64,000 nt of DNA from Chloranthus sessilifolius (Eukaryota > Streptophyta > Magnoliopsida > Chloranthales > Chloranthaceae). The stretch spans positions 83,549,765 through 83,613,764 of the forward strand of contig CM037588.1 of the NCBI GenBank assembly GCA_021018995.1. The letters are read 5' to 3'. Numbering within the stretch: the first letter of the stretch is position 1; each line of letters opens with the position of its first letter. The translations under genes and the position numbers were made by a program. The notes under the pieces are model-generated. The model was not told where the DNA came from. It worked only from the letters and a program-made list of their open reading frames with translations, and did no database searches. This document shows positions 1,546 to 49,200 of this stretch, piece by piece.

Positions 1546-1734
1546 CTCTGTCCATAAGGCCTTGGCTTCAAAAGAGATTAACCCTAATTTTTCTAGCAGA
1601 CGTGGCACTATTACAACCCTTGAATGTCTTGAGATGTGTGCCTCAAACTCCATGCCTTGAGAAGTGTGCCCTAACCTTGGGAAATTCCCTGAAGGTCCTT
1701 GAGTTAAAATTGACAAGTGGAGAGCCTGAGCTTC

Positions 1735-2290
1735 GCAGGGCTGGCATCTGCATTAATTCACTCGCGCAATGGCAGAGCCTTCGCAGAGGAGCATTTGGCT
1801 TAGGAGGATTGTTCACTCGCACGGTAGATTCTCAGTTGATTGTGTAGCTACTTTGTGTTGTAATGTTGTCACGGAGGTGATTTAGAATGCCTGGATTTCT
1901 CGCACAATAGATCTTCATAAGTTCTCTCTCGTTAAATATTCGCACAGGTAGGCTCCTACGCTTGCGTAGTAACTGGTTAGGCTTCAGAGTGCGCGAGAGC
2001 TGCATGAGGAAAATTTTGGGCATCTCTCACTTCCAGGGCTTAGTGAGAACTCCGTGAGGTGACAAATTGTTCTTTATGCATATGAATTTACTATGTTCTG
2101 CGCAAGGCTACTTTAAGGCTCGATCTCTGTGAGAGCTTCGCGAGCATAAATTTTGAGGGTTTTAAGACACGAGATCTTCATAATTTCTTTACTACTCTCC
2201 TCTTGACTGCGCGTCCTATCTGCGCAAGGGCAGCTTCCACTACATCCTTAGCTCCATCAGGGAGCTCCTCAACTCTGCGAGATGCGTGTT
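1735..2290 (-). repeat. CGCGAG/TCGCGAGG motif array in U3 of LTR A
   Basis: Many degenerate copies of TCGCGAG, CGCACAG and GCGCGAG lie irregularly spaced in about 550 bases, far richer in CpG than the surrounding AT-rich LTR. Copies point in both directions, since the core TCGCGA is palindromic. The better preserved copy of this array is at 25190-25760 in the partner LTR. The position upstream of the TATA box suggests a U3 enhancer or silencer array. Confidence 0.7.
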
Positions 2291-2617
2291 TTGATCCTCT
2301 GATGCATTGCACTTGCTGCTGTTGCAGCTTCCTCCATTCTCAACTAACTTCTTTCATCTGCTAGACTTTTGGTCAATGATGACCAACAAATGAGTCACCA
2401 TAGTGAGCATACCAGGGTGTTCCATTAGGCTTTGGCTCAGCTGTCATCTTTGCATATTTTCTTTCTCTTCTTTGGACCAATGAGCAGGGATTTTATCTTA
2501 AGCTACACAGTTTATTGCTAACTACAAAACACACCTAACAAATGATTATTAGTCTGCTTCAAGGTCCCTCAAAGGCTAGGTTCAGAAGTCAAAAGTGATG
2601 CTTTTTAGTAAATAACA

Positions 2618-4506: not shown

Positions 4507-7469
4507 TTAATCATCTGAGTCTTTAGCTTCAGCAGGTGGTTCCTGGATTTCTTTATCCTTTGCTTGCTTCAAAACAGCAGTCTTAGATAGTGGTCTTTTT
4601 GAAGTAGGTTTCCTAGGCTTGGTTGTGCTTTTCCTTATAGGAGTGGGTGATGGATGGCTTTAGGGTAGGGTCCTTGATTTTGAGTCCAGGTTTTACTTGG
4701 CTAGGTTCCTTTGAATCTGGAGCTCTTTGCTGGAGAGGTACATCTGGGTTTAATTCTTGAAAAAGAGCTTCTGCCAACTCCCTGTTAGTTTGTGCATTTA
4801 CGGACTTCTCCAAAGCTGCAATAGTCACCCCATAATCATGAGCTCTCTCCTCAGTCAGTCAGTCTCTCTTTCAGTTCCTTGATCACATCTTCTTGACTCT
4901 CAACTCTTCTCTTTTGCTGGTTGTAATTGGACCATAATCTCTATCCATCCTTGCTTGATTTCCTTTTTCTCAACCTTATGAGCAAGCATCAGGAGTTTAA
5001 TTTTATGAAGGAGGGGCTATCGTACTATAGCTTTCAAGTCAGCCATGCCTTGAACTACATCCCTCTTTATATAAGCATTAGCTTGCATGGCCCGAAGGAG
5101 GGTGTAACAAGGAGGCTAGGGATTACAAGAGACAGGAAGTATGGGCTGAGCAGTGAGGGAAGAAGTGCTAGCCAGCAATGGAAAGGGATAGGATGAAGAT
5201 AGGGGTGGGGTGGAGGGTAGAGGGTGAGGGACATTAAGGGTAGTTTCAGGTATGTGTTGTAGTTGAGGTTCAGGGTCTGTTTGGGTGGACACATCTTTTG
5301 AGGTGATGGGAGAAGTTTCTGGAGAGGTACAATGGGTGTGGGAGCAGGTGGTGGATTATGGTTTGATGTAGGGGGAGAGGTGACTATTAGGAAGGTATAG
5401 TTAGAGTGGTTAAAGCTGCTTGGATGGATTGTAAAATGGTTGGGATGGATGCAGGGTTTGGTAGGGTGGAGTGAATTGAATGAAGATTGGCCTCAATGGA
5501 TGCTTGGGTTTGGGTATTGACCAACATTTGGGAATAAAGGAGGAGTAAGAGGTGTAGGATTTGGGGTAATGGCTATGGGTTGAATAGGTGAAACTGGTTG
5601 AAAGGGGGAAGTGGGTCTATGAGTGAAGTGTGGGTATTGGCTTGTGGTGGTGTCTGATGTGGAGGGGTGAAGTGTGGAGGGTGAGGTGAGTTTGGGAGAG
5701 GGGTATACTCCAGGTTGATGTCTCCTTGGATAGTGGATATCATAGTGGAAAATTCCTCTCGTAAATGGGTCATGGTTATGGGATAATGGAATAGATTGGT
5801 ATAGGGGTTCACATGTGATAGGTATAAAGGGTGGGAAAGTCTCAATGGAATAATGTGGGGTTTCAAAGGTATGAGTTTTAGGTTCATAGGGTGTGGTTAT
5901 GGGGTCTGGAATGGTTGTGGTGTTAGGGATTGGAATGGTTTGGGACATATAGGTGGGATGGGGTTCAGTGGGGGTTTTGGCAGCTTTTCTTTTCTTCTAG
6001 TATGGAGTCTTGGTAGGTGGGCTAATGTGGGCTGGAAAAATAGGTAAGGGGACAGAAATGGGTAGGGTGTCAGTGGCTATGGTGGTTGGTGGTGAGATTA
6101 AGGTTGCTATAGCTGTGATAATTGGTGATATAGGCTCAGGTAAGGGTAGTGGACTTTTGTGGGGCTGTGAGGTCTAGGTTGAGGGTGGAGGTGGTGTGGC
6201 AATGAGTGTACATAAAGGTGGCGTTAAGGGAGTTGAGGCTGGCATGGAGGTAGAGGGAATGGCTGGGGAGGTAATGGTTGTGCTGGCTGACACACGTGAG
6301 GTGGAGGATGTAGCAGCATCTGCAGTAGCAACAGCAACAACACCTGCAGCAGCTATTTCATGAATGGTGGGGGCTGCTTCTCTCAGTAACTCCTCCCTCT
6401 GCTTTTTATTCTTCTCCATCATTGTGCCACTAATTCTCCACTGTTTCTTTCCATTATTTTTAGGGTTCAGGGTCACTGTCTCCTCCTCCCTTTGAAAGGG
6501 GTATTTCCCAAACTTCAGTAATGCAGTAATAAACCTGCAGTAGGGAAGAGCATGAGGTTTCTCCTTGATTTTCACCTTTTCACATAGGTCATTAATCCCC
6601 TCAAAAAGTAACTTGGCTGCATTAAAGTAACGATTCTTGTGAAAAGAAGAGGGCATCGGCTATTGGGGGCCTCCTCTCTTGCTCATGACCAGAGCAATAA
6701 ATATTTTTCCTTAACACCCCATCCATGAATCTGAGGTTGGGGTGTAGGTCCCTCTTCCTGATTGAGTCACTTGAGACAGTGATTTGTCCAGTTAACTCCC
6801 TTGCTATCTTAGTGATGGTGGCAGTCAAAGGAGGACTGAAACCCCATTCAAGGCTATACGTGGCTTATATCCCCAATATTCTTCAATGCCAGACTGGTTG
6901 AACAACATCTCAAAGTCATCAATCAATACCAGTAGTGATGGGTTCTCATCACCACTAGTTTTTAACCTCATATTCTAATAAAATAGTCTCACTAGTCTTG
7001 GGAAAACTAGTTGCATCGGGGGCCGCAACAGGAGCAGCAGAGATGCCTTGGTTAGATACTCAATGGAGGCAGAGGTCTCTAGTAGCTCCTCAAAATAGAC
7101 TTTGTCAAAAATAGTTTCAGCCTCCAACTGGATTGATTGCATAAATTCAGAAGGGACCCTGACGTATTCAGTAGTCTCTTCCTCCTCAACCTCCGGGACC
7201 TCAGGGGCCACAACTTTGCCCTTTTTGTGTTTCTTCTTTAATTTTTCAGGGCTCTTAGCAGGTGGGTGCTCTCTGGCCCTCTTCTTTAGGGCTGATTTCT
7301 TCTTTTCTTTTGGGATTGGGGGCCCAACAATAGGTGGAGGCACCTCAAAGGTCTCTAATGTGGAGGCCTCTGCAATCCTTACTAATTTTCTAGTGGCCAC
7401 AACACTACCACTAGCAGCAAGATTCAGCATGGCAGTTAAGGTATCTGTGAATTGTGAACCAGCAGCCAT
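4507..7469 (-). pseudogene. E1 3' ORF, lysine/proline-rich protein of unknown function (decayed)
   Basis: The likely start is MAAGSQFTDT at 7469. The first 164 residues are open and include a very basic stretch (KEKKKSALKKRAREH, then KLKKKHKKGK), a good nuclear-localisation candidate. The frame then breaks but continues in pieces at 6622-6828 and 6174-6656, and through a Pro/Ser/Thr-rich segment (5493-5948) to a basic tail ending KDSDD at 4507. The middle part resembles the plant-transposon domain also seen in E2 and E4. It sits after gag in the place where Athila elements carry their env-like ORF, but I see no transmembrane or signal sequence. Function is not known. A DNA-binding or regulatory role is my inference from the adjacent motif array. 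Confidence 0.6.
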
Positions 7470-7842
7470 AGGTGCAAAAATTATTAAAAATGGGGCTCAC
7501 AAATCTTAGAAAACACATAACACGCTTAATACGCATAGAAGCACCAAATTTTTTCCTTCTTTCTCTCTAATTTACTAAACCAATCAAAGCACAAAGCGAG
7601 AGTTGGAGGGCTTACCAATTGAGAGCTAGGGTTCCACCTAAAAACTTGCACAGCAATTCAAATCCCCCCAAACCTTGTTTAAAGTGACCAGGAGTAGTTG
7701 GGGAATAAAATGGTAGGAGGAAAATGCTTTAGGTGGAGTGGCTTAAGTTGTAGAAAAGAAAGCAGAGAAAGGGTAATTCGATTGTAGTGCGGAGAAGCTA
7801 GGGCAGAAAGATGAAGTGAAGAAAATGAAGGGTTTCGCAGAG

Positions 7843-8130
7843 TTTATAGAGCTAATCCCGTGGTTCGCCGAGTTGGAAATAAGTGCTCGCAGGATAGATT
7901 TCTCGTGCAGTTAACATTTAATCTCGCGAGAAGTTATGTCGCGTAGAAGAAAACTGCCTTTCAATCCATTTTGCAGAGTTGAAACTTTGCCATGGTGCGC
8001 GAGAGCTATTTCACTTCAGAATTTTTCCCTGCGATGTTCTCACGAAGAACAAAATATATGATAAGCCTTTCGCATGGATTGGACTCGCAGAAATAAAGTA
8101 ATTCTGCGAGGCTCTATTACCACTATTGTT
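7843..8130 (-). promoter_or_regulatory. Internal CGCGAG array with TATA box upstream of the E1 3' ORF
   Basis: The segment carries CTCGCAGG, CTCGCGAGAAG, GTCGCGTAG and GCGCGAGAGC, the same motif family as the E1 LTR. At its ORF-facing edge TATAAA reads on the minus strand (7843-7848), about 375 bases before the ORF start at 7469. I interpret this as an internal promoter for the 3' ORF. That is inference, since no transcript data are available. Confidence 0.5.
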
Positions 8131-9320: not shown

Positions 9321-9569
9321 GCTTTCTCCTTTAGCCTCAGATCTATTTTTCCGCCAATTGTAACTTCTAGCATGATTCTCTTATTCCCTCTTTTATTCCC
9401 TTTCTAGAAGGTTCTTCCAGTTCATTAAAGTTGAGGGAGGGCACGTGGGTCTGTTAGGGTTTCCCAGGGCACTTCTAAAAGTCTCGCACCAATCACCAAG
9501 GTGCCTCGGTTTGAGTGCAACAGGTCACCAACTCACAGCGTGTGCACAACAGCTTTTCTAGGAAGTGTT

Positions 9570-10065
9570 TAGATCGATTTTGATAGGTTGAGGAAGCTTT
9601 TGATAGGTTGAGATAAAAAACTTTGGTCCTTTTACTGGGATTCAGGATCCTATCGAAAGGTCCCAATAGGTTGAATCCTGCAGTTAGAGCTTCAGCATTT
9701 GCAACCTCCATTTGATGTTTTCGATAGGTTGAGCGATCCTTTCCACAGGTTGAGCTCTTGGATGATTGCTTTTGATAGGTTCTCTTCTGGCTCCTATCGA
9801 CAGGTTCCAGAAGCTTTCGATAAGTTCACCCACTGATTTGTAGCAACCATTCGATAGGTGGCATTTTCCTGATAGATTCTAGGATCCTGTCGACAGGATC
9901 ACTTTAAGTTCCATGGGACCTTTCGATAGGATGCTTCCTGCTTGCTTTCAACTGCTCGATAGGTTTCAGATCCTATTGAAATACTCTGATCTCCACGACT
10001 TCTTCCTTTTTAGCCTTCAGATCCTATCGATAGGTTGAAGTAACCTATCGACAGGTTGTTCTCAA
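9570..10065 (-). repeat. TCGATAGGTT palindromic motif array in U3 of LTR B
   Basis: I see roughly sixteen copies or variants of TCGATAGGTT or its complement in about 490 bases. They include full palindromes such as CCTATCGATAGG near 10025 and CCTGTCGACAGG near 9890. Spacing is irregular, so this is a dispersed motif cluster rather than a satellite. The same array lies at 20430-20935. Confidence 0.8.
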
Positions 10066-10331
10066 CTTGCTTTTCCTTTTTCAACGCTTTTTTGCTGTTG
10101 CTGCACACCCCAAGTGGTCATTGGTTTGGGGCCCTTTTGTGTGCCATAGCTGGGTTAGAGCTATGGTGAGAGATGGACCTTCTTGTAGAGCACTTTAGAG
10201 TGGATTTCTGCACTATGACTGCTTATTATTATTATCTACAAAACATTCTCAATAAGCACTTATTAGTCAACTCATAGGTCTATCAAAGCTCATGTTAAGA
10301 GGTGAAAAGTGACACTTTTCACTGATTAACA

Positions 10332-12122: not shown

Positions 12123-15046
12123 TTACAAATTTTTCAAATCATCCTTTGATAAAGGAGTTTTTCTTTTTGGTTGGGAATTCTTGGTAGATTGTTGAGGTGA
12201 CTCCTTAGACAAGGCAGTAGGTTTCTTGCCTTTCTTTGCAGAAGCAGCAAGAGGAATGGACCCACCATCTGAATCAGAATTAGATGGGAAGAGGTCAGTA
12301 GGATTGAGGCCAAGGGCAGCTGCAACTTTTCTTCTTTCTTCTTTGGAGAGTAAGGTGGAGGAGGTATCAGTAGGTGGAGAGGGCTTGGTAGGGGCTACCT
12401 CTTCAGATTGGGTAGCAAGCTTCTTCCCTTTTGCAGTAGAGGCACTTGAAGAAACATGCCACTTAGAAGTGACTTTTCTTGGAGTGGAAGACCTCTTGGG
12501 TTTTGGTGGGGAAGGTTGAGTGGAAGGGGGGTCTTGGGCCGGAGGGGGGGGGACATCCACAGGTTGGGATGGGAGGAGGGAGGGTTAGTAGGAGGAGCTG
12601 TAGCTAGAGGGGTAGGTTGGAAGGGCTGAGAGGTCAAGGAAGCACCCTTTTTCTCCAATATTTCAATTTGTTTTATGGCATAGAGTAGGTTGGTATCAGA
12701 GAGTTCCTTGGTGGCTTTGAGTATCTCCTAAGCATTGGCTAATTTTTTCTTGAGAAGCTCATAATTCTTCTTCTCATATTTGGCAATGAGACTCTCAGCA
12801 GCAGCCAACTATTTTGCTAACTCATAACGAGTCAGGATTTCTTTCCACCCCTGAGAGATATCTCGGAGCTTGATTCTGTGCTCCAATTCCATGTTGGCAA
12901 TCCTCTCCTCATAAGGGGCTTCAAGGGAAGCTCAGAGTGTAGCCATACCTCTCAGGACATCCCTTTGGATGTAAGGGTTGTCCCTCATGGCATACGTAGG
13001 GTGAGGTAAGGGGGGATGTACATGTTTTGTCTGAGGACAATGGGCAAGGAAAGGGGTGGACTGGATGAAGAGGAGGGGGAGGAGAAAACGAGATCCTCAC
13101 ATGGATCAGTTTGGGTGGAGGCATCTTTGAAAACTGGTGGAGAGCGAGTGGGGGAGTGGGTGATAGGTGACTCAGCAACTACAGAAGGAATTATAGCTGG
13201 TGATGAAGGAAGAGCAGATGCTGGTGAGGAAGTAATGGGGACAGATGGAGTTACTAGCTCCTCAGACTGGGTAGCAACTGTGGGGGGTGCAGTAATAGGT
13301 GAAGTTGGAGGGGATACATGAAGAGGTGATGGAACAGGGGAGAGAGGAGAAGAGTGAGTGGGTTGGGAAGCTGAAGAGGATGGGATAATGGTGGACTGTA
13401 TGGATTGAAGGCATGAGCTCATGAGGGCTTTGTTGTTGAAATTGATGGTCAACTGAGATTGAATGGACTGTAGTAGTGAGAGAATTTGTCTGAAGGAATC
13501 AAGAATGATGGAGCTTTAGGGTACAGCTGTGGGAATGGGCTGGAAAGGAGAGGAGGGTGCATGGTTGAAGTGAGGGGGAGTGGGGTGTGGGGAGTCAGGG
13601 AGTGGGGTGTACTCATGAGCAACATCCTCCACAATGAATGTCATGAGGGTAGTGAACCCAGCAGTGGTAAACTGGTCCAAGCCCTGGGTAGGAAGGAATG
13701 GTTGGAGAGGGGGAAAATCAGGGATGGGTTGGTCCATGGGTGGAGAGGAAAGGGTAGGCTTAGGTAGTGGTGGGGGGCAAGGACTTCAGGTTGGAGGTCA
13801 AGGGTGGTGGGTGGAGGTAAAACTGATTCAGAGGTGGGAGGAGAGGGGTTTGTTGGAAGAGGGACTGATACAATGGGGAAAAGCAAAGTAGGTGGGGGTG
13901 TTGGTGATGATGGAGGTAGGGTAGGTGAAAGGATGAATGGGGGTATCGCAGCAGGAAGATCTGCTACCATGGTAGTGGCCACCTCCTCAGCCTCCTCCAT
14001 CCCAACTGGCTTACTCTTCTTAATCAAGTTGAGGCTGGTGGACCATTCCCTTTTTCCATATACTTTTATGGTCAACATCTCCATTGGCTCATTTCTTTTG
14101 ACCACATACTTTCCAACCTTGACAAGCATGTAATGAGCCTGCTAAAAGGCAACCCACCTCCTTTAGCAAATGCTTGTCTTTTCAGCACTTTATCATTGAT
14201 GTCCCCATTGTCTCAAAAATAAACTAAGGTGCACTCAAAAATTGCCCTTTTGAACAGTAGTACAAGGCATCTACAATTGGGGGCCTTCATTCCTGCAGGT
14301 GCCCAGTGACATAGACATTCTTCCTCAAAAGAGTATCAATGAATCTGAGCCTGGGTTAGAGATCTCTTCTCATCAATGATTCACCAGATCCCACAATTCC
14401 ATTAGTGAGCTATTTAGCCATTTCTTTAAATGTAACCCAGTTGGGTGCTCCCTCAGATCTAGTGTAGTCAAATTGGTGTGGAACTCCCAAAGCCATCCCA
14501 ATATCCTTGCTATCCACTGTGATTTGACAATCATTAATTAAAATTTCCAACACAACCTCTTTCCCAGGCACCACCTTCTTTTTCAAATTCTGGTACCACA
14601 GCTTAACTAGCCTCAGGTACACAGTCTCCTTCAATGGTGTAAGTAGGGGTAACAATCCCTCCTTTTTCAGATACAATAGTGTCCCCTAGCACTCCTCAAT
14701 GTTGGCAAAGTATGCCTGATCAAACTTAGTCTCAGAGACCATGCTCAAACCATCCACAAACTTGTTAGGAGTGGTTAATTCAGCAGGAATCTCCACAGGC
14801 TGTATTTCAGGGGTGGGCAAAGGTGCTTCCCCAATTTGAATAGATTTCTCCATAGGTATTTCTGCAGCAAGCTTTGGAAGTGCTATAGACTTAGCCTTCT
14901 TAGCTTTACTCCTTCTTTGGCTTCCCCTTAGGGAGCTTCCTTTTGGTAGGTGGTTTGGTGGCAGGTTTGGATTTCTTGGAGGACTTGGGGGTGGAAGCAG
15001 TTGGATGCCGGAATAGGTCAGCTAAGGTTTCTTCAGAATCGGCCAT
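12123..15046 (-). pseudogene. E2 3' ORF, basic proline-rich protein of unknown function (decayed)
   Basis: The inferred start is MADSEETLADLF at 15046, matching the MADPNQFEE start of the E4 copy. The N-terminus is rich in lysine (KSSKKSKP, KRKLPKGKPKKE). Next comes a conserved domain at 14410-14676 with LLTPLKETVYLRLVKLWYQN and VDSKDIGMALGVP. I associate it with the putative plant transposon protein domains common in such ORFs, by recognition only. Long Pro/Ser/Thr stretches follow (13641-14129, 12985-13452), and a basic tail ends PLSKDDLKNL at 12123. Several frame breaks make it inactive. There is no sign of a membrane anchor, so an envelope role is not supported by what I see. Confidence 0.6.
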
Positions 15047-15364: not shown

Positions 15365-15700
15365 ACCTACCGATAGGTATATGAAGAGGAAAAATCAATT
15401 TCGATAGGATGAATTGAATGATTTCGATAGGTGATGGCGTCCTGTCGAACGCTATAGAAGTACAATGTGCAGATGGAATACTTCAATAGGTCAATCCTAC
15501 TTATCGATAGGTTCATGGAGCGTATGATTTATCCTTTCGATAGGTTCCCGATAAGTACCCATAACCTATCGAAAGCTTCTTTCTAACCTTTTTGAACTTA
15601 ATGAAAAGTTGTTTTCACCTATCGACCAATCTCAGTGCCTATCGAAATCCTCTAGGGACCTATCAAAATCATCAAATGGCCTATCGAAAGGTCTCATATG
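15365..15700 (-). promoter_or_regulatory. Internal TCGATAGG array upstream of the E2 3' ORF
   Basis: I count about eight exact TCGATAGG octamers here on the two strands, plus several variants. They begin about 320 bases upstream of the ORF start at 15046. Copies near 15370-15560 point one way and those near 15565-15690 the other. The motif is the same family-specific version as in the E2 LTRs. Confidence 0.65.
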
Positions 15701-15937
15701 CCCATAGAACCAACATCTTCATGCAGTGCTCAGCCTCAGCACTCAGCAAACTCTTTTGTTGTGCTTCCATTCAAATTTTTTTCATTATTTACACACTCCC
15801 ATAGTCTCTGAATTGCGGGCAAGACCAATGTGATGACCCAATGCTGGAATGGAAATTTTATTGTGAACAAAGCCTTAACACATAAAGTAATCATTTAAAA
15901 TAGAATGAAAATATGGTACATATGATACACACTGAAA

Positions 15938-17074
15938 TTAGGTAAAAATTGGAGGGTCCTGAAGATCAATGGTCTCCTCAGGTACATGGATTTTTTCAAT
16001 ATAACTTTTTAACCTTTGGCCATTGACTTTCATGGCCCTACCATCTTTAGGGTCCTCGATTTCTATAGTTCCAGATGGGGAAACATATAAGGCTATGTAA
16101 GGCCCATCCCATCTGAACTGCATTTTGCTTGAAAAGAGTTTTAATCTTGACTTGAACGACCATACCTTGGCAGCTTTTTTGAATTCTCTCCACTGCAGGT
16201 GCTTGTCAAGAAAGGCCTTAGTTTTGTCTTTGTAGATCCTTGCGTTTGAATAGGCATCCATCCTCAACTCTTCAAGCTTAGATATTGGCAATCTCCTGTT
16301 CACACCAGCAATGGTTAAGTCAGCATTTAATGTTTTAATGGAGAAAGAGTCCTCACTCTCTAAGTGGGGCTGATGATTTGCATGGTACACATTCAGCTTG
16401 ACTTTCATATTGCCAAAAGTTACTTCCATGATCGTTGATCTACATTGTATGCAAGCATTTTCAGTGGCCAAAAAGGGCCTGCCTAAGATCACAGGGATAG
16501 AAATAGCACTCCTACTTGGCTTCATATCTAGCACCAGAAAATCAGCAGGATAAAAGAATTTGTCAACCCCAACCAAGATATCTTCAATGATCCCCACAGG
16601 CTTCCTTTCAGATCTATCAGCTAGTTGTAAGTCCACATGTGTGGGCTTCAACTGTCCTAAGCCCAACTTCTCATATATTGAATATGGAAGCAAATTTGTA
16701 CTAGCTCCCAGATCTAACAAGACCTTTTTAATGGTATGATCCCCAATGATGCAGGGGATAGTAGGGACTCCAGGGTCTTGGAGTTTGGTTGGGGTAGCAA
16801 TAGTCAAAATCTGTTTCACTTTTTCTGTTGAAAAGACTTTCTTGGACAAATGTATCCTTGATTGTCTCTTGTGGGTGCACAGGTCTTTTAAAAACTTGGC
16901 ATAGGCTGGAACCTGCTTGATTGCATCAAGGAGAGGCAGGTTAATCTTCACTTGCTTAAAGGTTTCCATCATTTCCTCTATTTTGGCATGCCCATTATCA
17001 AAAGGGGAAGATGCTTGCATTGCCCTAGGAAATGGCAAATGTGGGACTGCTCCCTCATTTGCAGCCTTTGCCAA
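15938..17074 (-). CDS. pol: E2 fused protease and integrase C-terminal ORF (internal pol deletion)
   Basis: The 378-codon frame has no stop. Residues 1-110 are the gag-protease linker typical of Athila (KIEEMMETFKQVKINLPLLD). The retropepsin core follows, with LLDLGAS at about 119-125 and ILGRPFLAT near 197-204. Around residue 247 the sequence jumps straight to the integrase C-terminal region: LEELRMDAYSNARIYKDK, RWDGPYIAL at about 321-329 and KVNGQRLKSY. Reverse transcriptase, RNase H and the integrase zinc and catalytic domains are missing. The frame is kept across the junction near 16330. In an intact element this would be one polyprotein with gag. A frameshift in an A-rich run near 17095 now separates it from gag. 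Confidence 0.75.
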   Translation of the reverse strand: MAKAANEGAVPHLPFPRAMQASSPFDNGHAKIEEMMETFKQVKINLPLLDAIKQVPAYAKFLKDLCTHKRQSRIHLSKKVFSTEKVKQILTIATPTKLQDPGVPTIPCIIGDHTIKKVLLDLGASTNLLPYSIYEKLGLGQLKPTHVDLQLADRSERKPVGIIEDILVGVDKFFYPADFLVLDMKPSRSAISIPVILGRPFLATENACIQCRSTIMEVTFGNMKVKLNVYHANHQPHLESEDSFSIKTLNADLTIAGVNRRLPISKLEELRMDAYSNARIYKDKTKAFLDKHLQWREFKKAAKVWSFKSRLKLFSSKMQFRWDGPYIALYVSPSGTIEIEDPKDGRAMKVNGQRLKSYIEKIHVPEETIDLQDPPIFT

Positions 17075-17204
17075 CTCATCTTCTCTTTTTTTTCTTTTTT
17101 TTTTTCTCGAGGATCATCACTATCCTTTTTATTCATCATGGGTTGCTCCTGTTGCACATTCTCTTTAACCACCTCTTTCTCTTTTTCTGCATTTCTCAAA
17201 GACC

Positions 17205-18722
17205 CTAGCCTACTTGATTATCTACCAACCTTCCACTTCTCAATGTGGTGACAAATTTGGCTTTCTCATAGGAAGAGGAGACTTCACCTACCACATATTG
17301 TCTCCTTGGGTTGTCCATGGGTTGGCTAGGCAGCCTCCATTCCTCTCTCTTGGCTAAAGCATTAGATAGCTGATCAAGATGGTCTTTTATCATTTTAATG
17401 CTTTGACTATGAGAATGCACAGTCTGAGACAAGGATCCTAAGTTCTGGAATGAGGCCAGAACTAGTTCCACAAAAGAAGTTGATCTAGCAGCTGAAGGGG
17501 GTGCATATTGCTGTATAGGCTGAGCCATAGGTTGGGCCATAGGCTGTTGGCATTGAGGCCTTGGGAAGTAATTCTGGTGGTATGGTTGAGCATTCTTGTA
17601 AGGCATAGGCTGCAATGGCTGCTGTTGCTGGTTTTAAAAACCATCTTGTCTCCACCTTAAGTTGGGGTGGTTTCTCCATTGGTAAGCAGCAGTAGGTTGT
17701 TGCCCATAAGATTGAGTGGCAGCCACATGATCCATCACAAAGTCTGAAAATTGAACAGCTGAGGGGCATTCCTAAAGGGAGTGAGTGGGGGGCTGGCATA
17801 TAACACATGCCTCCTCCACTTTAGTAGCCGTGGGTGACTGCATTGCTCCCAGGAGCTTGTCAAATTTTTGGGTCAAACTGTCCACTTTCTTTTCAAAATC
17901 ATTGTGACCACTTACCTCATACAATTTTCCTCTTGTGGTATTTTCTTTCACCATTCTAGGAGTGTCCCAATCCCTGGACAATGTCTTTCTCTGCATGGAG
18001 TTCTCACTGATAATGTCAAATAACTCTCAAGCCTCCTCAGTAGTTTTATGGAGGTAAGTACCACCACAAGAGGCATCGACCATTTCCCTGCTTTTGGAGT
18101 CAATCCCTTGATAGAAACTTTGGACAAGTTGCCATTCGGGGATTTGATGATGGGGACATTTCTTCAGGAGTTCTTTAAATCTTTCCCAAGTTTGGTGAAA
18201 ATCCTCAGTTAGATCTTTAGCAAATGAGATAATGTCCTTCCTCAACTGGCTTGTCTTCAACATGGGAAAAAACTTAGCCAAAAACTGACATTGAAGGTCA
18301 CTCCAGGACTGAATGCTGTTGATTGGGAGCATTGACAACCAAGTCCTGGCCCTATCCTTTAGTGAAAAAGGAAAGAGTCTCATCCTGGTTGATTCCTCCC
18401 CCAAACCTGTGATATCGAATGTAGTGCATAGTCCTAGAAATTCATCAATGTGCTTATATGGGTCTTCTTTGGTCAGGCCATAGAATCAGGGTAGCATTTG
18501 GATTATGGATGACTTGATCTCATAATTCCCTTGAGCAGCAGGGAATTGAATGCAGAAGGGAGAGTTGTAAACCTCTAGTGCATTGAATTCCTTCAAGGTT
18601 CTAGGTTGCTGTTGCTCACCCATTTCAGCAGATGTCGGTGAAATTTGTTTAATCCTAAGGATTCTTTGAACCTCTGGATTTAATGGAACAATCTAACGGT
18701 TGAGAATTCTCCTTCCAAACAC
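17205..18722 (-). pseudogene. gag: E2 gag (broken)
   Basis: The capsid region is recognisable at 18027-18404 (RTWLSMLPINSIQSW, FLAKFFPMLKTSQLRKDI, REMVDASCGGTYLHKT), followed by a CCHC zinc knuckle (CVICQPPTH then EC, spacing C-x2-C-x4-H-x4-C) and a glutamine/proline-rich tail. The conserved start MLGRRSLNP of related gags is here FGRRILNR with the initiator changed to GTG at about 18722. Stops interrupt it at several places. Gag forms the virus-like particle and binds element RNA. This copy cannot make a full protein. Confidence 0.8.
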
Positions 18723-19017
18723 CACTCACAATCTTAATGCACACACAACGTAAAACCAATTTATCACAATAATCAGGAATCAACACAATACAAATCCACA
18801 GATCATAAAAATAAAAGGAGTAGAGGAATGCAAACTTTAGCACAGCCTCTAGCACAATGTTCCTCTGTAAACACAACTTCTAATATATTAAAAATAATAA
18901 AACTACTACAAAACAACATAAATTTCAACAACAATTAGTGGAAAACTAAATAATCTATTGCAAATCTACAATCTATACTAAAACAAACTTAGATCTACCA
19001 ATTTTAAGCATACAGAT

Positions 19018-19034
19018 TCCCGGTAGCGGTGCTA
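19018..19034 (-). other. E2 primer-binding site (tRNA-Asp type)
   Basis: The + strand reads like the 3' end of plant tRNA-Asp (CCCCGGCAACGGCGCCA) with several mismatches. It is separated by AAAACT from the LTR start at 19041. Confidence 0.75.
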
Positions 19035-19040
19035 AAAACT

Positions 19041-21189
19041 TGTTGAGATTCTGTCTTGTGTTCAAAAAGGGGTTTAAACTTGCACAATTAAAGGGTCTAT
19101 GGATAGCACACACCAAGGCAGGCTCACACACAGTCCTGCAAGTATTCAGGGCCTGTTGTAATAAGTTTTTTTTAAAAAGTAAGGGAATGTCCACAAGGAA
19201 ATGTGAGTTAAAATCAGGTAAATCTCTAGATCTGTGGTAGATCTGGCACCCTTCCTAATGTTAACACAGTAAAAGGAAGAGGAGAGGTTTAAGGGGTTGT
19301 CACTTCTAAATTAAACTAAAAACAAGTAAGATTGCAGAGATGGATGGTAGGATCAGATTTGGAGTACAGATCTTGCAGAGAGGGGGAATTAAACACAGAA
19401 AATGGGGAGAAGAAGCTTGGAGTTTGGTCTTGCTGCAATTTGGTTGAGCTGCTAGGGTTACAGAAAGTATAGAGTACACCAATCCCTCATCTGGCCATAG
19501 GCACAGCTGCAGGGTAGAAGAATCTACTCTACACCAAAGGCTTGAATTGATCTTAAGGGTATGATCTGTCCACTTTAATGGCCACAGATCATCCTATAGA
19601 CTTCCTTCAAATCAAAGGATTGAGGTAGAAGAATCCAATTTAGACCAGAGGTTTGAATTGATCTTAAGGCTATGATCTATCCACTTCAATGGTCACGATC
19701 ATCCTAGGGATTTCCTCCAAACCAAAGGGTTCAATTAGAGCATTAAAATCACTGTGAATGCTGTAATTACCAAGCTATAGACACAGGCAATTGCAGGAGC
19801 ATCAGATCCAGGGAGATCAAATGGCATCCAAGTGGTCTACCAGTTAAGTGGGTGAGCTATTCTTATCTACACAAAGCCGATCGAGCACCAAATGAAACCA
19901 AAGGAACTACAGATCTTATTACAACAATTAAACCAACATTACATTGAATTAAACTGACCATATAATGAAATGTCCTCAGATTTACAGTCTGTGCATCATC
20001 TAACCCTCAACAACACTCTCAACTCTCCCTAATTACAAATTCGACCTCTCTCTTTCCTGCTCTCAAGAATTTAGCCAACCATAGTTGAACTAAAGGAAAG
20101 AATTAAAGAATTTCACTGCAGGCTCTGGTTTTCAGAATTGATCCCCCCTTTTTTTGACTGCTTCCTTCCTTCTTATAGCTTTCTCCTTCAGCCTCAGATC
20201 TGTTTTTCTCGCCAATTACAGCTTCTAGCATGATTCTCTTATTCCCACTTTTATTCCCTTTCTAGAAGGTTCTTCCAGTTCGTTAGAGTTGAGCGGGAGC
20301 ACGTGGGTTGGTTAGGGTTTCCTAGGACACTTCTATAAGTCTCGCGCCGATCACCAAGGTGCCTCAGTTTGCTTGCAGCAGGTCACCAACTCGCAGCGTG
20401 TGCACAACAACTTTTGTAAGAAGTTCTTAGATCGATTTTGATAGTTTGAGGAAGCTTTCGATAGGTTGAGATAAAGAACTTTGGTCCTTTCGCTAGGATT
20501 CAGGATCCTATCGAAAGGTTCCAATAGGTTGAATCCTGCAGTTATTGCTTCAACATCTGTAGCCTCCATTTGATGTTTTCGATAGGTTGAGCAATCCTTT
20601 CGACAGGTTGAGCTCTTACATTATTGCTTTCGATAGGGTCTCTTCTGGCTCCTATCGATAGGTTCCAGAAGCTTTCGATAAGTTCACCCACTGATCTATA
20701 GCAACCATTTGATAGGTGGCATTTTCGTGATAGGTTCCAGGATCCTGCTGACAGGATTACTTTAAGTTCTAGGGGACCTTTCAATAGGATGCTTCTTGCT
20801 TGCTTTCAACTACCCAATAGGTTTCAAATCCTATCGAAATACTCTGATCTCCATGACTTCTTCCTTTTCAGCCTTTAGATCCTATCGATAGGTTAAAGTA
20901 ACTTATCGACAGGTTATTCTCAGCCTATTTTTCCTTTTTAAGTGCTACTTTGCTGTTACTGCACGCCCCAAGTGGTCATTGCTTTGGTGCCCTTTTGTGT
21001 GCCATAGCTGGGTCAGAGCTTTGGTGAGAGATGGACCTTCTTGTAGAGAAGTTTAGGGTGGATTTCTGTACTATGACTGCTTATTACTGCTATCTACAAA
21101 ACATGCTCAACAAGCACTTATTAGTCAAATCATAGGTCTATCAAAGCTCATGTTAAGAGGTGAAAAGTTGTACTTTTCACTGATTAACA
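19041..21189 (-). mobile_element. E2 5' LTR (family B)
   Basis: It starts TGTTGAGATTCTG next to the primer site and ends GATTAACA, followed by the target duplication TGCAA. It keeps TATAAG (20172-20177) and a motif array at 20430-20935 with at least five exact TCGATAGG and two TCGACAGG octamers. Confidence 0.9.
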
Positions 21190-23470: not shown

Positions 23471-23476
23471 AAAACT

Positions 23477-26094
23477 TGTTTGTATGGGTCTGTCAGAGGA
23501 TGTGCTGATTTATTATGTGGGGTTGGAAGAAAATTTAAATCAAAGTAAAACAGAGGATAAAAGTGATATGGTGAAAATAACAATCCTAAAACATCCTAAG
23601 CCTACAAGATCCAAGGCTATTGTAGCAAGTTTTGATAAGTAAGAGTTTGTCCCATAGAGAAATTGATGTAGAACCCAAAATGGGCTATAATAGTAGGCCT
23701 CCAAATCTTGCTACAGATTTGATAATCCTAAAGAAAGGGAGTTGGGCGTCACGACTACACTAAATTAATCCTAACAAAAGAGAAATAAAGTGCACCGCTA
23801 TCCTAAAGAAAGGGTTAAGAAGAAGATGGTGATGGTGTGTGCGAAAATAAAATATAAAAATGATGGGAAGTAAGCAGGTTATGCTAGAGTTAATGCAGTA
23901 ATGTAACTCTGATTTTGACTGTCTCTGCAATGGTCCTTGCTGAGATGCTATCAATAACCTCAACAAGGTAGAAGAATCTAATTTAACCCATGCAAATTGG
24001 GGTGCTCTTAGGGCTATACTCTGTCCACTCAAATGGTAACAGAGTATCTGATAGAGTCAGTCAAATCCCATTGATTAAACCGGAAATGCTAACCTAATCT
24101 AAAGGAGTGGATTGATCATTTCCCCAACCAATGGGCCAGATCAAGCCATGAATATTATTGCAGACACTATATAATGCCAGTGCTACACGCTCCCCAGATC
24201 TGCGCACAGATCTGACTGACATCCATAAGTATTCCAACCCATAAAATCCTATGTGCTTTGCTAAGGCCAACGGCTCAATGTGCCAATACAAAGGACCAAC
24301 AACAGGATGAATAAGGATTTAGATTCAGCTGATCATTGCCACAAAAGGCTTGTACTGACTCAGCCTCAAGCTGTAATTACTACAGAGATATCAGATCTAA
24401 CATCTCATATCAGACAAGTAAAATAGAGGGGAGCCAGTTCCTGCACAAACCTCCTCACAAGGCTTTAGAACCTCATGTGTAGAGGAGAAGAATCCTTCTC
24501 AGACATGTGGCTGGACACCACCTTAGGGTTATACTCTGTCCACTCAAATGGTCATAGAATTCTCATACCATACGTAGATCAAAAAAAGAATATGTAAACT
24601 GTCGCCACCATGGAGTCCAGTGTATTATTTAACTCCAAATCGCTCTGATTTGGCTTGCTTTCCATGGGTCTATTAAACCAAGGGAAATCAGATGGTAAAT
24701 AATACATCTACTAAAACTAAATGGGCTAGTCCCAAAAACATGGATTCTATAGACATCTAAAAAATCCATAAAGATCTATAGATATAATTAGTCATTAAAA
24801 CAATAATCCATTGATAAAAGAAAAACTTACAATGAACTGTCTCAAGGCTACAACCTGTACACAACTGCTCATCCAAAAGATCCCAATGTATATAAAGCCT
24901 ATTACAAAACTAAAATAAAACTAAACCTAGCTGCTTACAAAAGGATTAGCCAGCTAATGATAGGCTAAGAGAGAAGAAAAATAAGAAAAGAAATTATCAA
25001 ACCCTAACCTTACCCTGCTGGAGCTCTCAGACGACAGAGGATGAAGAAAAGAGCTTAATCTTAATTTTTCCAGCAGACATGGCACTATTACAACCCTTGA
25101 ATGCCTTGAGATGTGCACCTCGAAATCCATGCCACTTGAAGTGTGCCCTAACCTTGGGAAATTCTCAACAGGTCTTTGAATTAAAACTGAGAAGTGGAGA
25201 GCCTGAGCTTCGCGGGGATAACAACTGCATTAATTCACTCGCGCAGTGGCAGAGCCTTCGCGGAGGAGCATTTGGGTTAGGAGGATTGTTCACTCGTGCG
25301 GTAGATTCTCAGTTGATTGTGCAGCTGCTTTGTGCTGCAATGCTATCACAGAGGTGATTTAGAACACCTGGATTTCTCGCACAGTAGAGCTTAAGAAGTT
25401 CTCTCTCGTTGGATATTCGCACAGGTAGGCTCCTGCGCTCGTGTAGTAATTGGTTAGGCTTCAGAGTGCACGAGAGCTGCACGAGGAAAATTTTAGGTGT
25501 CTCTCTCTTCCAGGGCTTCGCGAGAACTCCACGAGGTGATAAATTATTCTCTATGCATATGGATTCGTTATGTTCTGCGCGCGGCTGCTTTAAGGCTCGA
25601 TCTCCACGAGGGCTTCGCGAGCATAAATTCTAAGGGTTTTAAGATGCGAGATCTTCATGATTTTTTTACTGCTCTCCTCTTGACTGCGCATCCTATCTGC
25701 GCGAGGGCAGCTTCCACTGCATCCTTAGCTTCGCGAGGGAGCTCCTCAACTCTACAAGATGTGTCTTTTGATCCTCTGATGCATTGCACTTGTTGATGTT
25801 GCAGCTTCCTCCATTCTCAGCTAGCTTCTTTCATCTGCTAGACTTTTGGTCAATGATGACCAGCAAATGAGTCACCATGGTGCGCATTCCAGGGTGTTCC
25901 ATAAGGCTTTGGCTCAGCTGTTATCTTTTCATGTTTTCTTTCTCTTGTTTGGACCAATATGCAGGGATTTTATATCAAGCTGCATAGTTTATTGCTAACT
26001 ATAAAACACACCTAATAAATAATTATTAGTCTGCTTCAAGGTCCCTCAAAGGCTAGGTTAAGAGGTAAAAAGTGATACTTTTTGGTGAATAACA
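23477..26094 (-). mobile_element. E1 5' LTR (family A)
   Basis: It starts TGTTTGTATGGG and ends GAATAACA at 26094. It is collinear with 1-2617 but lacks about 60 bases around 25050 that in the 3' LTR contain the TATA box. The CGCGAG array is at 25190-25760 (TTCGCGAGAACTCC, GGCTTCGCGAGC, CTTCGCGAGGGAG and others). Confidence 0.9.
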
Positions 26095-31860: not shown

Positions 31861-32275
31861 GGTTGCTCGATAAGTTGGAGTACTGAAGTCTTAGTCTATT
31901 TGATAGCTACTCGAGTGGATGAGTCATAAAGGATATTTTAAAGGTCTCCCGAGAGGCCTCGAGAAGATAGGCTTCTGTCTGATAACTGCTCGAGTGGCTG
32001 AAGTACTAAAGTCTTGACTGCTCAACAGGATACTTCTGAAGGCTCTCAAAAGAATGAATTACTGTGGGTCTTTGCCTGCTCGAGAGGATACTGTGAACTG
32101 CTCAACCTGCTCGAGAGGCTTACTTCAGTAGAGGTTTGAACTGCTCGAGTGTGCTCGACAGCTCCTCGAGAACATGATCTTGAGGTTTGTTCTGCTCGAG
32201 ACAGCTTGACAGGCTAGATTTGAGGGTTTCAGATCTGCTCGAGAAAACATGATCTGAGATTTCTGCTTCTCAACT
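31861..32275 (-). repeat. CTCGAG palindromic motif array in U3 of LTR E
   Basis: I count nine CTCGAG hexamers between 31911 and 32244, mostly as CTGCTCGAGAGG, CTGCTCGAGTGG or CCTCGAGAA, plus several variants (CTCGACAG, CTCAACAGG). One per about 4 kb would be expected by chance. The half-site TCGAGAGG is the family version of TCGnnAGG. Confidence 0.8.
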
Positions 32276-32590
32276 GGTTTGTCTAGTCTGCTACAGCACT
32301 CCTTTAGGCATGAGTCCCACAGGTCTCTCATTGCAGGACTTCTAGGGGTTCAAGGCATGCCGAGTAACCCATTTGGTGGGGACCAGCATGGTTTTTTCTC
32401 TATATTTCCATCAGCTCCAATGCTTGACTCTAATTCCTCTCTCCTTGGCACTTGTTACATGGATTGTAGCACCCTTTTGCAAATTATTGCTAACTACAAA
32501 ACCACACTCAAAAATCAACTATTAGATAGCTCTAGAGTCTTGTAAGGACTAGGTTAGGAGGTCGAAATTGGCATAATTCAATGATTAACA

Positions 32591-34509: not shown

Positions 34510-34870
34510 TGCACCTCGACAGGTTCAGAGTACCTCTCGACAGGTCTTCAACTGGTGTAAAGCTTCAGGCCCAACCTCTCGACAGGTTCAGTGATTCAGA
34601 ACCTTGATCTTGATAGGTTCATAACACCCTTCGACAGGTGCTCGATAGGTTCTCGATGAGTTGAGTTCAGCGTTTTACACTTCGTGAGGTTGGTTGGCTT
34701 TAGGTAACCTCTCGACAGGTTCGTTCTATAATATGTGGAACCACTCAATAGGTTCATTAAACTGCTCGAGTTCACTTGTGAGCTTCAGCAACTGCTCGAA
34801 TGCTTCATTGGACTGTTCGACAACTTCATGCAACTTGTCGACAGGTTGTTTCAACTGCTCGAATGCATCC
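34510..34870 (-). repeat. TCGACAGG motif array in U3 of LTR D
   Basis: I count six exact TCGACAGG and one TCGATAGG, plus CTCGAATG and CTCGAGTT variants. The dinucleotide AC between TCG and AGG distinguishes it from the AT of family B. Confidence 0.75.
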
Positions 34871-36959: not shown

Positions 36960-39105
36960 CTACTCCTAATTTGAATCTGAGCTTAAAAAAAGTAACTGGG
37001 TCCCATCCATATTTTTTGCACATTCCTAATACTCCTTCAAATTTTCAGTTTTGGCAGCACCAGCCTTCGTCCTTTTGGCAGCTGGCTTCTGTGGCTTGGT
37101 GTTGCTCTGCTGTTGAGAGGGTTCTTTGAAAGACACTCCAGCAGAGGAGGGTGAATGACTGAGATGGAATTTTAGAGTCCATCCACATGTCGTCCCAACA
37201 TCTCTGATTTCTACTTTTACTCTTCATATAAATTAAGGGTTTCCATTAACAATTGCTCCCACTTCCTCTTCTCCACTTTATGATCTAGCTCCAGCTGGTC
37301 AATTTCTGCTATCAATGGTAGCATTACCAAAGTTTGAAGCTCAAACATTCCTCTTATGACATCTCTGTGGATATAAGGGTTGGTAGACATATCTTTTTTC
37401 AGGGTGGCAAATGGAGGCATAGGGTTTAAGGATGCCAGGATCATGGTTTAAGATGATGGGACAACTAAAGGGTGTAGAAGGGTTGTTAGCAGCTCCTCCT
37501 CTAAAGGCTCAGTTTCGGTGGAGGTAGAGGTCAGGGTAGGGAAAATAAGGGGTAAATCCCCCACCTCAGTTTGGATGGAGGAGGAGGCATAGGTAAGGTG
37601 GGCAAGGACCAACTCCTCAGAATCATTGTTTGTCTGAGTGGTAGCAGTGATAGTGGCCACAGAAATGGAAGGCTGTGGAGAGGATATAGGAACAAGTGAA
37701 GGGATAAGGGGTTAGGAGGTTGGGGTAGATGACAATAGAGTGGATTGAATGGAATGGAGGAAGGTTTGCATGACAGATTGGTTCTTAGTGGTAGTATGGA
37801 GCTGAGATTGGATAGATGTGAGGAGGGAAAGGATTTGGGCAAATGAGTTAGGTAGGGATTGAGTAACAGGTTGGGCAGGTGAAATAGGAATAAAAGGGGA
37901 GGTAGTGGCATGTTGGAAAAGGTCATGCTGTGGAGAATTAGGAAGAGGGATGTACTCATACCCAATATCCTCCACAATGGAGTAAATTAGGGTAGAGTAC
38001 CCCTTAGTATAAAGTGCTCCAGATCCTGTGTATGGATAGGTGAAAGAGAGGTAGGTATGTCAGTGGGGATGAGGGCATCAATATCAGATGGGATGTAGGT
38101 GAATGGTGAAGGTGGACCAGGAATTGTAGGTTTAGGTGGGTGAGGTTTTTTGTGGTATGTTGTTCTAATAATGGCGGGTGTGGGCAAGATTAATGGATCA
38201 ATGGTAGGAAGAGCTGACATATGGAAGGTTGTGGTACTGAGAGATATGGGTGCAAGTATGGAAGGTATGGGAGATGGGGGAATGGATGAGGTAATAGGTG
38301 TTGTCACTAGTCCCACAATTGGTTCAGCTGAGGAGATTGTCAGCACAGAGGCTAAGCTGGTATGTGAAGTTGCAATGCTAACATCCACTATGGTGGCCAC
38401 AGTGTCCTCCCCTGAAGTATCCTCAACATGTTTCTTCCTCTTTTCAATCAGGGTCATGCTGGTTGACCACAACATCTTTAGAGATTCACCAAATCCAACA
38501 ATACCCTAAGTCAAATGATGAGCCATATCCCAAAAGGATACACTGTCAGGGGTATCTAACCCTCTAGATGGATCATTTTGAAAAGGAATCCACATCACCA
38601 GTTCGATGTCCTTGACATCCACCACCCCTTCCCTGTCATCAATCAACACTACAATCACTGGTTCAGATGGCCCAGAATATTCTTTCAACCGAATGTTTTG
38701 AAAAAATAATTTCACCAACCTGGAGTATACTCTTTCCTTCAATGGAGTCAGTAAGGGCTTCAAAGCAACCTTCTCTAATAAACCATGGTTCTACTCTCTG
38801 GTTGAGTAAAGTAGGAGATATCAAATGTTGTCTCAGGTATCAGACTCAAGGCACCCACAAATTCATTTGGAGTTGAAAGTGGGTTAAATTCAGCCTTGGG
38901 CTCAGGAACCATAGGTACCTCCTCATTCATACTCTCACTGGCTTTGGGCTTTTTGGATTTTTTAGACTTTATGGGCTTCTTGGACCCAGATATCTCACTC
39001 AACTTTCATTTAACAGGTGGGTCCACTTGCGAATGAGAAGAAGCTAGTCTGTTAGATTTCCTAGTTGATTTGGGGGAGGGTTGAACCAAATTTGATAGAG
39101 ATTCC
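36960..39105 (-). pseudogene. E4 3' ORF, main part, interrupted by E5
   Basis: The start MADPNQFEE lies beyond E5 at 48548, and the ORF resumes left of E5 at 39105. It has a lysine-rich N-terminal part (KKPIKSKKSKKPK at about 38940-38985) and the shared domain at 38506-38763 (LLTPLKERVYSRLVKLFFQN, VDVKDIELVMWIP). Proline/serine/threonine-rich stretches follow (37987-38475, 37531-37977), and the tail is near 37030. Frames shift several times. Function is unknown. Its upstream array (48955-49200) uses the same motif as the E4 LTRs. Confidence 0.6.
39101..39105. repeat. Left target duplication of E5
   Basis: ATTCC, identical to 48521-48525 on the other side of E5. Confidence 0.85.
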
Positions 39106-40744: not shown

Positions 40745-41285
40745 TAGAGCTTCGCTAGGTAGCCATCGATTCCCAAACTTGTTGCGTGGTAGCACTGAAT
40801 TCATGAGGATGAGTTAGCATTAAAACTTCAGACGTCGCAGGGTTGCAGCTTCTTGATGCTTTGAGCAGTCGCGAGGTAGATAGTTAAGCTCTCGCTGGAT
40901 TGGGCTTAGCGCAGTTGGATTGCTAGTTGTTAATAGCGCAAGAACTGCGCGAGCATTCCATTTCACAATAGATCTTCGCGAGGCTAACTCTGGCTTCGCG
41001 AGGCTGCTTTCTTCCTGAACAGCGTGAGAACTACACGAGAAGATCACTTCTTAATGGAACTTCGCGAGGATCCTCGCGAGGCTTTGATAGTTTCTGGACT
41101 ATGCGAGAGGTTCTCTTGACATTTGCATCCCACGACTACTGCACGAGGCAGGATTTTGAAGCTATTCTGTCACTCAACTGCACGAGAAGTTGTTGTGAAG
41201 CCTTGGGAATTTGCGAGGACTGCGCGAAGCATATTTTTCTGAATCCTCTGAAGCTTTGGGAAGTTGCGCGAGGCTCTTCTTAGGT
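40745..41285 (-). repeat. TCGCGAGG motif array in U3 of LTR C
   Basis: I count five exact TCGCGAGG octamers, including the palindromic CCTCGCGAGG near 41070, and many GCGCGAG or GCACGAG variants. The array lies upstream of TATATAAA in element sense. The matching array of the partner LTR is at 47780-48330. Confidence 0.75.
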
Positions 41286-43487: not shown

Positions 43488-43885
43488 ACGAAAGACCGCG
43501 AGAGCTCTTATCAGAGGGCAACTGGTGATGGAGGTTGTAGGAGCAAATCCCCAGAATTTGAAGGTGAATGGAGGACTGTAGAAAGGATGCTGGAGGAGAG
43601 AGATTAATGGGAGTCAGAGCTAGGGTTTCGCTGGCTGGAAAAGAAAGAGAAAATAGAAAAGGAGAGCAGCGCGGGGTTGGATTAAATATATCGTGAGGCT
43701 TAGCGCGCTTTAAAATTATCTGCTCGCTGGATTGAAATGAGTGGGTCGCGAGATTGGATGTTCATCTAAACTGCGCGAGGAAGCCCACACAACTACGTTT
43801 GAAACTCGCGGCAACTAAGCAGAGTAGTTCCTTATGACCTACGCGAGAGGAAGCCAAGCCAAATCTTCAGAACCCCGCGACAGCT
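43488..43885 (-). promoter_or_regulatory. Internal CGCGAG array with TATA-like box upstream of the E5 3' ORF
   Basis: It contains CCGCGAGAGC, ATCGTGAGGCTTAGCGCGC, GTCGCGAGATT, CTGCGCGAGGAAG and ACGCGAGAGGAAG, the same variant as the E5 LTR. TATATTTA on the minus strand is at 43683-43690. The position relative to the ORF matches E1, E2 and E4. Confidence 0.55.
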
Positions 43886-46140: not shown

Positions 46141-46146
46141 AAAACT

Positions 46147-48954: not shown

Positions 48955-49200
48955 CAAGTGGTTCGCGAGTAGTTCAGTTTAACCTATCGAACCGATGAAC
49001 CCATAGAAAGCACAGAGAGCTCCAGAACGAAGAGTTTGAGGGGTTCGTCCATCCTCTCGACAAGTTCCATTCTTCAGAAAAAAGGATTCGATAGGTTCCT
49101 TGAACCTCTCAATAGGTTATCAAAACCTGTCGAATTCTCTTAGAATACCATCAGAACCTGTCGAATTGTATTTTTAACCTATCAACAAGTTTTAGTGATG
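48955..49200 (-). promoter_or_regulatory. Internal TCGACAGG/TCGATAGG array upstream of the E4 3' ORF
   Basis: It includes ACCTATCGAACC, CTCTCGACAAGTTC, TTCGATAGGTTCC and two copies of AACCTGTCGAATT. The mix of AC and AT versions is that of the E4 LTR. It begins about 410 bases upstream of the ORF start. A clear TATA box is not visible. Confidence 0.6.

Follow-up and report, generated by a model that had tools for sequence, protein, structure and literature searches.

Five nested long terminal repeat (LTR) retrotransposons, E1 to E5, lie in a 64,000-nucleotide stretch of the Chloranthus sessilifolius genome (CM037588.1:83549765-83613764), every one of them on the minus strand. The stretch was analysed whole and is called the window here; its contig is labelled G000:C5 in some coordinates, and the assembly amounts to 2.17 Gb. 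Arrays of a short word stand in the unique 3' region (U3) of the LTRs and again inside the elements, ahead of the 3' gene, and the variant of the word found in one place mostly agrees with that in the other. The finding is real and extends well past the window. As judged from the sequence, the two promoters of each element would share one sequence-specific factor per lineage, a reading to which we assign a probability of roughly two in three.

A first-pass annotation of this DNA had proposed that LTR and internal arrays match in type within E1, E2, E4 and E5. Sites were counted on both strands within the array boundaries it gave and compared with 1000 dinucleotide shuffles per region. The arrays are as follows.

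9570..10065, minus strand: E2 3' LTR (U3) array, TCGATAGG type, 9 exact sites
20430..20935, minus strand: E2 5' LTR (U3) array, TCGATAGG type, 9 exact sites
15365..15700, minus strand: E2 internal array, TCGATAGG type, with 8 exact sites (shuffle mean 0.04); the protease/pol remnant lies on one side of it and the 3' gene on the other
34510..34870, minus strand: E4 3' LTR array, TCGACAGG-dominant, 7 TCGA[CT]AGG
55705..56075, minus strand: E4 5' LTR array, TCGACAGG-dominant, 6 TCGA[CT]AGG
48955..49200, minus strand: E4 internal array, mixed (2 TCGACAGG and 2 TCGATAGG), 4 sites (shuffle maximum 1)
25190..25760, minus strand: E1 5' LTR array, CGCGAG type, 5 sites
1670..2330, minus strand: E1 3' LTR array, decayed CGCGAG type, the aligned LTR copy; top 6-mer count not above shuffles
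7843..8130, minus strand: E1 internal array, CGCGAG type, weak, 3 sites; TATAAA at 7843-7848, AACCCTA and GGTAAG downstream
40745..41285, minus strand: E5 3' LTR array, CGCGAG type, 8 sites
47780..48330, minus strand: E5 5' LTR array, CGCGAG type, 4 sites
43488..43885, minus strand: E5 internal array, CGCGAG type, 5 sites; TATATTTAA near 43690 within the array
31900..32280, minus strand: E3 5' LTR array, CTGCTCGAGAGG type, CTCGAG 9 in the U3 region
CM037588.1:83547965-83548225 (L009:8200-8460), just outside the window: E3 internal array, TCGAGAGG/CTCGAG type, CTCGAG 4

The claim for E2 was confirmed: none of the 1000 shuffles reached any of its three counts, the shuffle means being 0.02-0.04. 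All 31 copies of TCGATAGG in the window and 19 of the 20 copies of TCGACAGG fall within the E2 and E4 arrays. The TCGA[CT]AGG counts of E4 were likewise reached by 0/1000 shuffles, and TCGACAGG dominates in its LTRs (6 TCGACAGG, 3 TCGAGAGG and 1 TCGATAGG in the wider region of the 3' LTR array; 4 TCGACAGG and 2 TCGATAGG in that of the 5' LTR array), whereas the internal array is mixed. For E5 no shuffle reached the CGCGAG counts. Those of E1 were each reached by 1/1000 shuffles, which makes E1 the weakest case. The counts of all four elements thus exceed their shuffles; because E1 and E5 are of one type, however, the four hold only three types. In E3, LTR and internal arrays also agree in type, on the strength of few sites: TCGAGA[AG]G occurs 3 times in U3 and twice internally, and CTCGAG, being palindromic, gives 18 and 8 when both strands are counted.

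The array word makes up one half of the dyad CCTNTCGANAGG, which varies between lineages; 17 sites of the CCTNTCGANAGG form occur in the window. The core of the motif is TCGA, CGCG or TCGC, and half-sites are present in both orientations. Because the sites are dyads, the factor would probably be dimeric. The half-dyad form, the common orientation of the five elements and the agreement in E3 go beyond the first-pass annotation. Within the LTRs, the arrays mostly lie 200-800 nucleotides from the LTR start, and TATAWA follows at about 800-1050 in 11 of 15 scanned LTRs, a count made without a chance control; it is absent there from the E1 5' LTR, both E2 LTRs and the E4 5' LTR. These features also bear on whether the arrays act in RNA, as signals for packaging, dimer initiation or splicing. 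Palindromes can in general pair in RNA, but half-sites in both orientations and LTR arrays upstream of TATA-like boxes in most LTRs leave RNA-level signals scarcely plausible.

In the E2 and E4 arrays, the CpG of TCGATAGG has changed to TTGATAGG (8) and TCAATAGG (5), and the four transversion forms number 0. Such changes, to TpG or CpA only among the counted forms, are as expected of old, silent copies methylated at these sites. They would suit arrays that are targets of an element-encoded remover of DNA methylation, like VANC for VANDAL transposons, and not of an activator; the passages covered on VANC21 describe binding to dense short noncoding motifs, of types that have diverged among related families (PMC5735166). 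However, VANDAL is a DNA transposon, no VANC domain (DUF1985, DUF287) was found among the 3' proteins and pieces scanned, and activation explains the arrays equally well. We regard anti-silencing as distinctly unlikely. A comparison of motif with spacer conservation in 13 aligned internal regions (0.903 against 0.848) was set aside, its columns having been picked for holding motifs.

The sample was enlarged to 28 elements: E1 to E5, A, C to L, M10, M15 and ten relatives. Neighbouring elements were located in the 210 kb beside the window with coding, linker and LTR-end pieces of the window that exclude the arrays; one further neighbouring stretch (relative 37102-40942) lies outside the sample. 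M10 and M15 are E4 relatives on other chromosomes, found with an E4 LTR query that contained its array, so that only their internal arrays are independent of the selection; both carry the expected one. The ten further relatives were picked by pol end from the low-identity end of a list of 40 places. All ten have an internal array, with 6-11 sites each against a shuffle maximum of 2, and U3 was captured for six (five, then C11). Eighteen elements yielded a U3-internal pair. Left out were G, K and L (no internal array of the counted classes), F, I and J (LTR region only), and C12_71.6, C4_55.8, C2_110 and C12_53 (internal array present, U3 not captured).

The correlation of variants that the first-pass annotation had suggested looking for is present in this sample. 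The top variant is the same in U3 and the internal array in 15 of the 18 elements, the exceptions being A, D and C6_122; ties were assigned to the first class, by which rule C14 (U3 5/5) and C11 (3/3 and 5/5) agree and C6 (U3 3/3, internal 5/6) does not. The cosine of motif-class counts was 0.890 within and 0.373 between elements, a difference reached by 0/20000 permutations. When the elements are gathered into six motif groups, with cosines of 0.99-1.00 except for A/D/E (0.54), the true U3-internal pairing ranks 1 of 720, ahead of the 719 other pairings. A test on 6-mer profiles, with no chosen motifs, gave 0.245 within and 0.115 between 13 elements, and 0.275 and 0.110 after removal of G, K and L, with 0/20000 permutations in both cases; with one element per type, p was 0.008, the floor for five types. 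Furthermore, the fraction of T sites in U3 and in the internal array is correlated among nine E4-related elements (Spearman 0.85, p 0.004), a result that rests on two sub-clades. Same-type elements can be close kin, as the alignable internal regions of A/D/E and of C/E2 attest, and both arrays might simply have inherited an old word, their resemblance owing nothing to selection. Independent drift would break the agreement, yet six motif groups agree across both places; shared ancestry alone is therefore very unlikely.

The elements that have no internal array of the counted classes offer a partial comparison. In G and K, the room for a 3' gene is 1.7 and 1.2 kb and holds 3 and 0 open reading frames (ORFs) of at least 70 residues, in two cases only. 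The decayed element L has a 3'-gene match yet lacks the array. Separately, G (CM037588.1 ~83614460-83627040) has about 2.9 kb between conserved LTR ends, rich in AGCAGC/AGCTGC and without a pol match.

The internal arrays do not look like recent gene-conversion copies of U3, the origin that the first-pass annotation had set against its own proposal. In nine elements, the likeness of U3 and internal site flanks fades about 5 nucleotides outside the word, and identity farther out is mostly 0.2-0.4; the arrays are thus not plain copies. Local alignments within an element (E<1e-3) were obtained in 3 of 13 elements (C, D and E4) and span 24-50 nucleotides, and site spacing and orientation differ between U3 and internal arrays. 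On the other side, the E4 5' LTR U3 and internal array share one 50-nucleotide stretch at 80%, and the best flank matches in the nine elements score about 2-4 positions in 30 higher than shuffled flanks. The flank identities and the short, rare alignments lead us to reject for the most part the copying of U3 into the internal region; copying by recombination or gene conversion, in either direction, is highly improbable.

Leader-like signs of the 3' gene after the internal arrays are supported. Words were scored in 10 internal regions with arrays against 300 shuffles; A, D and E, being closely related, do not count as independent here. AACCCTA occurs in 8 of the 10 (all but E3 and C), where shuffles average 0.4 and 0/300 reach that number. 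A donor-like GGTAAG, GGTGAG or GGTATT is also found in 8 (all but C and H; shuffles 2.8, reached by 1/300). In E2 and E4 a ATGGCCGA start follows the internal array, in E4 near 48548. The 3' gene remnants of the window are listed below.

12126..15046, minus strand: E2 3' gene remnant, broken; ATG near 15046 (ATGGCCGA); pieces similar to E1 and E4 pieces
5070..7496, minus strand: E1 3' gene remnant, by similarity to other window pieces; no convincing Pfam match
37534..39005, minus strand: E4 3' gene remnant; the E5 insertion (39106-48441) cuts it off from its start

Five pieces of the E2 gene gave no Pfam match. The sole copy seen open from its start is that of element D, a frame of 556 residues from the ATG (L022:8182-9849); the genes of A and H are split over frames. 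PF20167 (Transposase_32) matches 3 of the 10 3' proteins scanned, those of D, A and H, with E values of 1e-8, 5e-8 and 7e-6. A lysine-rich stretch opens the 3' protein pieces of D, A, E and H; we read it by eye as a probable nuclear signal. A downstream piece in E ends acidic and serine-rich. Protein searches with the E2 3' piece and the D 3' protein returned no match, and a literature search found no paper describing PF20167.

These observations can be assembled into a mechanism. The LTR promoter would give the genomic RNA and a putative internal promoter the messenger RNA of the 3' gene, the paired arrays being candidate binding-site clusters in both. One sequence-specific factor per lineage would bind both arrays, and when that factor changes its specificity, both arrays would follow. 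The first-pass annotation had ascribed the matching variants to joint selection by one trans-acting factor; the variant correlation and the lack of copied flanks make one factor per lineage the best reading, at the strength given above. The factor may be the product of the 3' gene itself, which is PF20167-like and basic at its N-terminus, and may work in a loop as foamy virus Tas does. We put its being encoded by the element at somewhat short of an even chance. Alternatively, each lineage may have recruited a different host transcription factor or paralogue for both promoters, leaving the element without a regulator. Agreement of the arrays needs only a shared factor, and motifs of Sireviruses mainly recover sites of stress-related plant factors in PLACE, according to the passages covered (PMC2829016). 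The variants, however, differ only slightly from a single dyad (CCTNTCGANAGG and relatives), more like the mark of one evolving factor, and the gene that follows the internal arrays has, in its open copy in D, the lysine-rich N-terminus read as nuclear. Recruitment of host factors is thus unlikely, though to be taken seriously.

Several results weigh against one factor per lineage or its source in the 3' gene. A TATA-like word beside the internal array occurs in 6 of the 10 regions (E1, E3, E5, A, D and E, not in E2, E4, C and H), a number that 80/300 shuffles reach; as it is not above chance, it was not counted as support. The PF20167 scores (35.7, 33.6 and 26.6 bits) are all under the Pfam cut-off of 45, the window's own 3' gene pieces have no PF20167 match, and a PDB search found no relative. 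Counts are tied in C14, C11 and C6, and two of the 15 agreements come from the tie-break. The A/D/E match is partial: among the scored classes, U3 has TCGCAAAG sites exclusively, to which the internal arrays add TCGAAAAG and others. In the 6-mer test, a same-type relative outscores the element's own internal region for E5, A, C and E (H, D, E2 and D, respectively), and for E1 and H there is a tie with E5; the test therefore distinguishes types, not individual elements. Within the six Tmix elements the T-site correlation is not significant (0.64, p 0.17), and a single element, with 3 and 2 sites, makes up the G motif class. Finally, the families are related, so that 18 elements are not 18 events, and the motif classes were defined after the first 13 elements had been seen; for both reasons the probabilities are guides only.

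Sireviruses, of the Ty1/copia superfamily, are a close precedent. The passages covered of Bousios et al. (2010; PMC2829016) report palindromic repeated motifs, element-specific in sequence, in the LTR upstream of the TATA box and in the linker upstream of ENV. Their Table 3 gives linker copies in nine ENV-bearing elements and none in four without ENV, and the authors consider an internal promoter for ENV to be supported. A similar layout, with arrays in the LTRs and ahead of the 3' gene, is seen here in 18 elements. In contrast to the Sirevirus CGG-CCG core (12 of 13), which these arrays lack, the core here is of the TCGA/CGCG kind, pol has a Ty3-like order and the 3' protein is PF20167-like; in addition, U3-internal agreement was tested statistically here. 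New, then, is a probable Ty3 (Athila-like) case of that architecture. The first-pass annotation knew of no such paired arrays for Athila-like elements; this stands as far as the top matches in the open-licence PMC literature go, which include no report of them, and does not extend to Sireviruses. The label Athila-like comes only from that annotation and from the PF20167-like 3' ORF of sunflower Athila.

Other systems resemble parts of the arrangement, as far as the passages covered go. VANC and VANDAL share with it short motifs clustered in transposon noncoding regions, with types that diverge between related families (PMC5735166, PMC10398659). VANC is evidence that a transposon may itself supply the factor for motif arrays that diverge (PMC5735166); there the factor is known and bound in a DNA transposon, whereas here a candidate factor is proposed for LTR elements. 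In foamy virus, one activator, Tas, drives the LTR and an internal promoter; this is a vertebrate retrovirus, and the comparison is by analogy only. In sunflower Athila 14, the 3' accessory ORF matches PF20167 in part and is predicted to carry a nuclear localization signal, much as the 3' gene here; the passages covered mention no arrays (PMC11728184). The accessory gene of Grande lies between pol and the 3' LTR and, by title, has its own promoter and a nuclear product. The TRP28 ORFs of Retand occupy the same interval and are predicted to bind DNA, but are antisense, unlike here (PMC11963269). Paired LTR and internal motifs are not mentioned for Grande or Retand in the passages covered (PMC11963269).

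Many of the extra 3' genes of plant retrotransposons have been labelled envelope-like. A fuller proposal, more tentative by a shade than element encoding as such, is that the 3' gene is a lineage-specific DNA-binding regulator which activates or de-silences the LTR and its own internal promoter via the dyad arrays. On this view the elements would be the plant equivalent of complex retroviruses that have a loop of the Tas kind, their lineages insulated by small dyad changes. The matched arrays allow a direct test, in which a 3' protein should bind the array of its own lineage and not others. If true, the proposal would mean that plant retroelements possess a self-reinforcing regulatory programme, and would offer for study protein-site pairs that have diversified in nature. 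Were the factor supplied by the host, the arrays would still indicate that a Ty3 element has an internal promoter, a parallel to the Sireviruses, which belong to the other superfamily.

By gene order, LTRs, primer site and purine tract, the elements are Ty3/gypsy LTR retrotransposons. Their remaining features are given here.

Window left edge to 2617 (running 84 bases beyond the window) and ~23476-26094, minus strand: E1, 3' LTR and 5' LTR, an LTR pair
8175-10331 and 19041-21189, minus strand: E2, nested in E1, LTR pair (identity 91.6%)
~30597-32588, minus strand: E3 5' LTR; E1 interrupts E3
33276-35099 and 54466-56305, minus strand: E4, LTR pair
39106-41394 and 46147-48441, minus strand: E5, nested in E4, LTR pair
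53573-54352: E4 gag (PF03732)
51958-52218: E4 protease region, only by similarity to E2; no Pfam match
50705-51007: E4 reverse transcriptase (RT; PF00078)
50253-50441: E4 RNase H (PF17919)
In 15938-17113: E2 protease (PF13650, 24.0 bits against a cut-off of 24.3)

Pfam matches in E4 follow the Ty3 order, in which gag comes first and RT and RNase H come after it. No Pfam match was obtained for the integrase, and the pol end was defined by position; RT and RNase H sit between the protease region and this end, as in Ty3. LTR pairs are present for E1, E2, E4 and E5. Judged by eye, E2, E4 and E5 have a primer-site-like sequence next to the right LTR, while in E1, E2 and E4 a purine-rich complement stands next to the left LTR.

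A 59-base stretch of 96.6% identity links the 3' U3-side region of element A (L027) with the E3 internal region (L009:7900-8677); it is far above the general similarity of A and E3 and is perhaps part of a third insertion. At the right window edge, part of an E5-like LTR lies inverted at 63087-63986; its identity with 39786-40691 is about 76%. Outside the studied elements, 58624-58839 is a tandem repeat of 4.8 copies of a 45-base unit. A gag ORF at 32749-33231 (PF03732, E 5e-16) adjoins E4, is about 32-44% identical to the other gags and belongs to a further element. Element E (CM037588.1 ~83532379-83541342) contains four stretches resembling gag, all on one strand and spaced at about 2.8 kb, which would suit a tandem repetition of a segment carrying gag.

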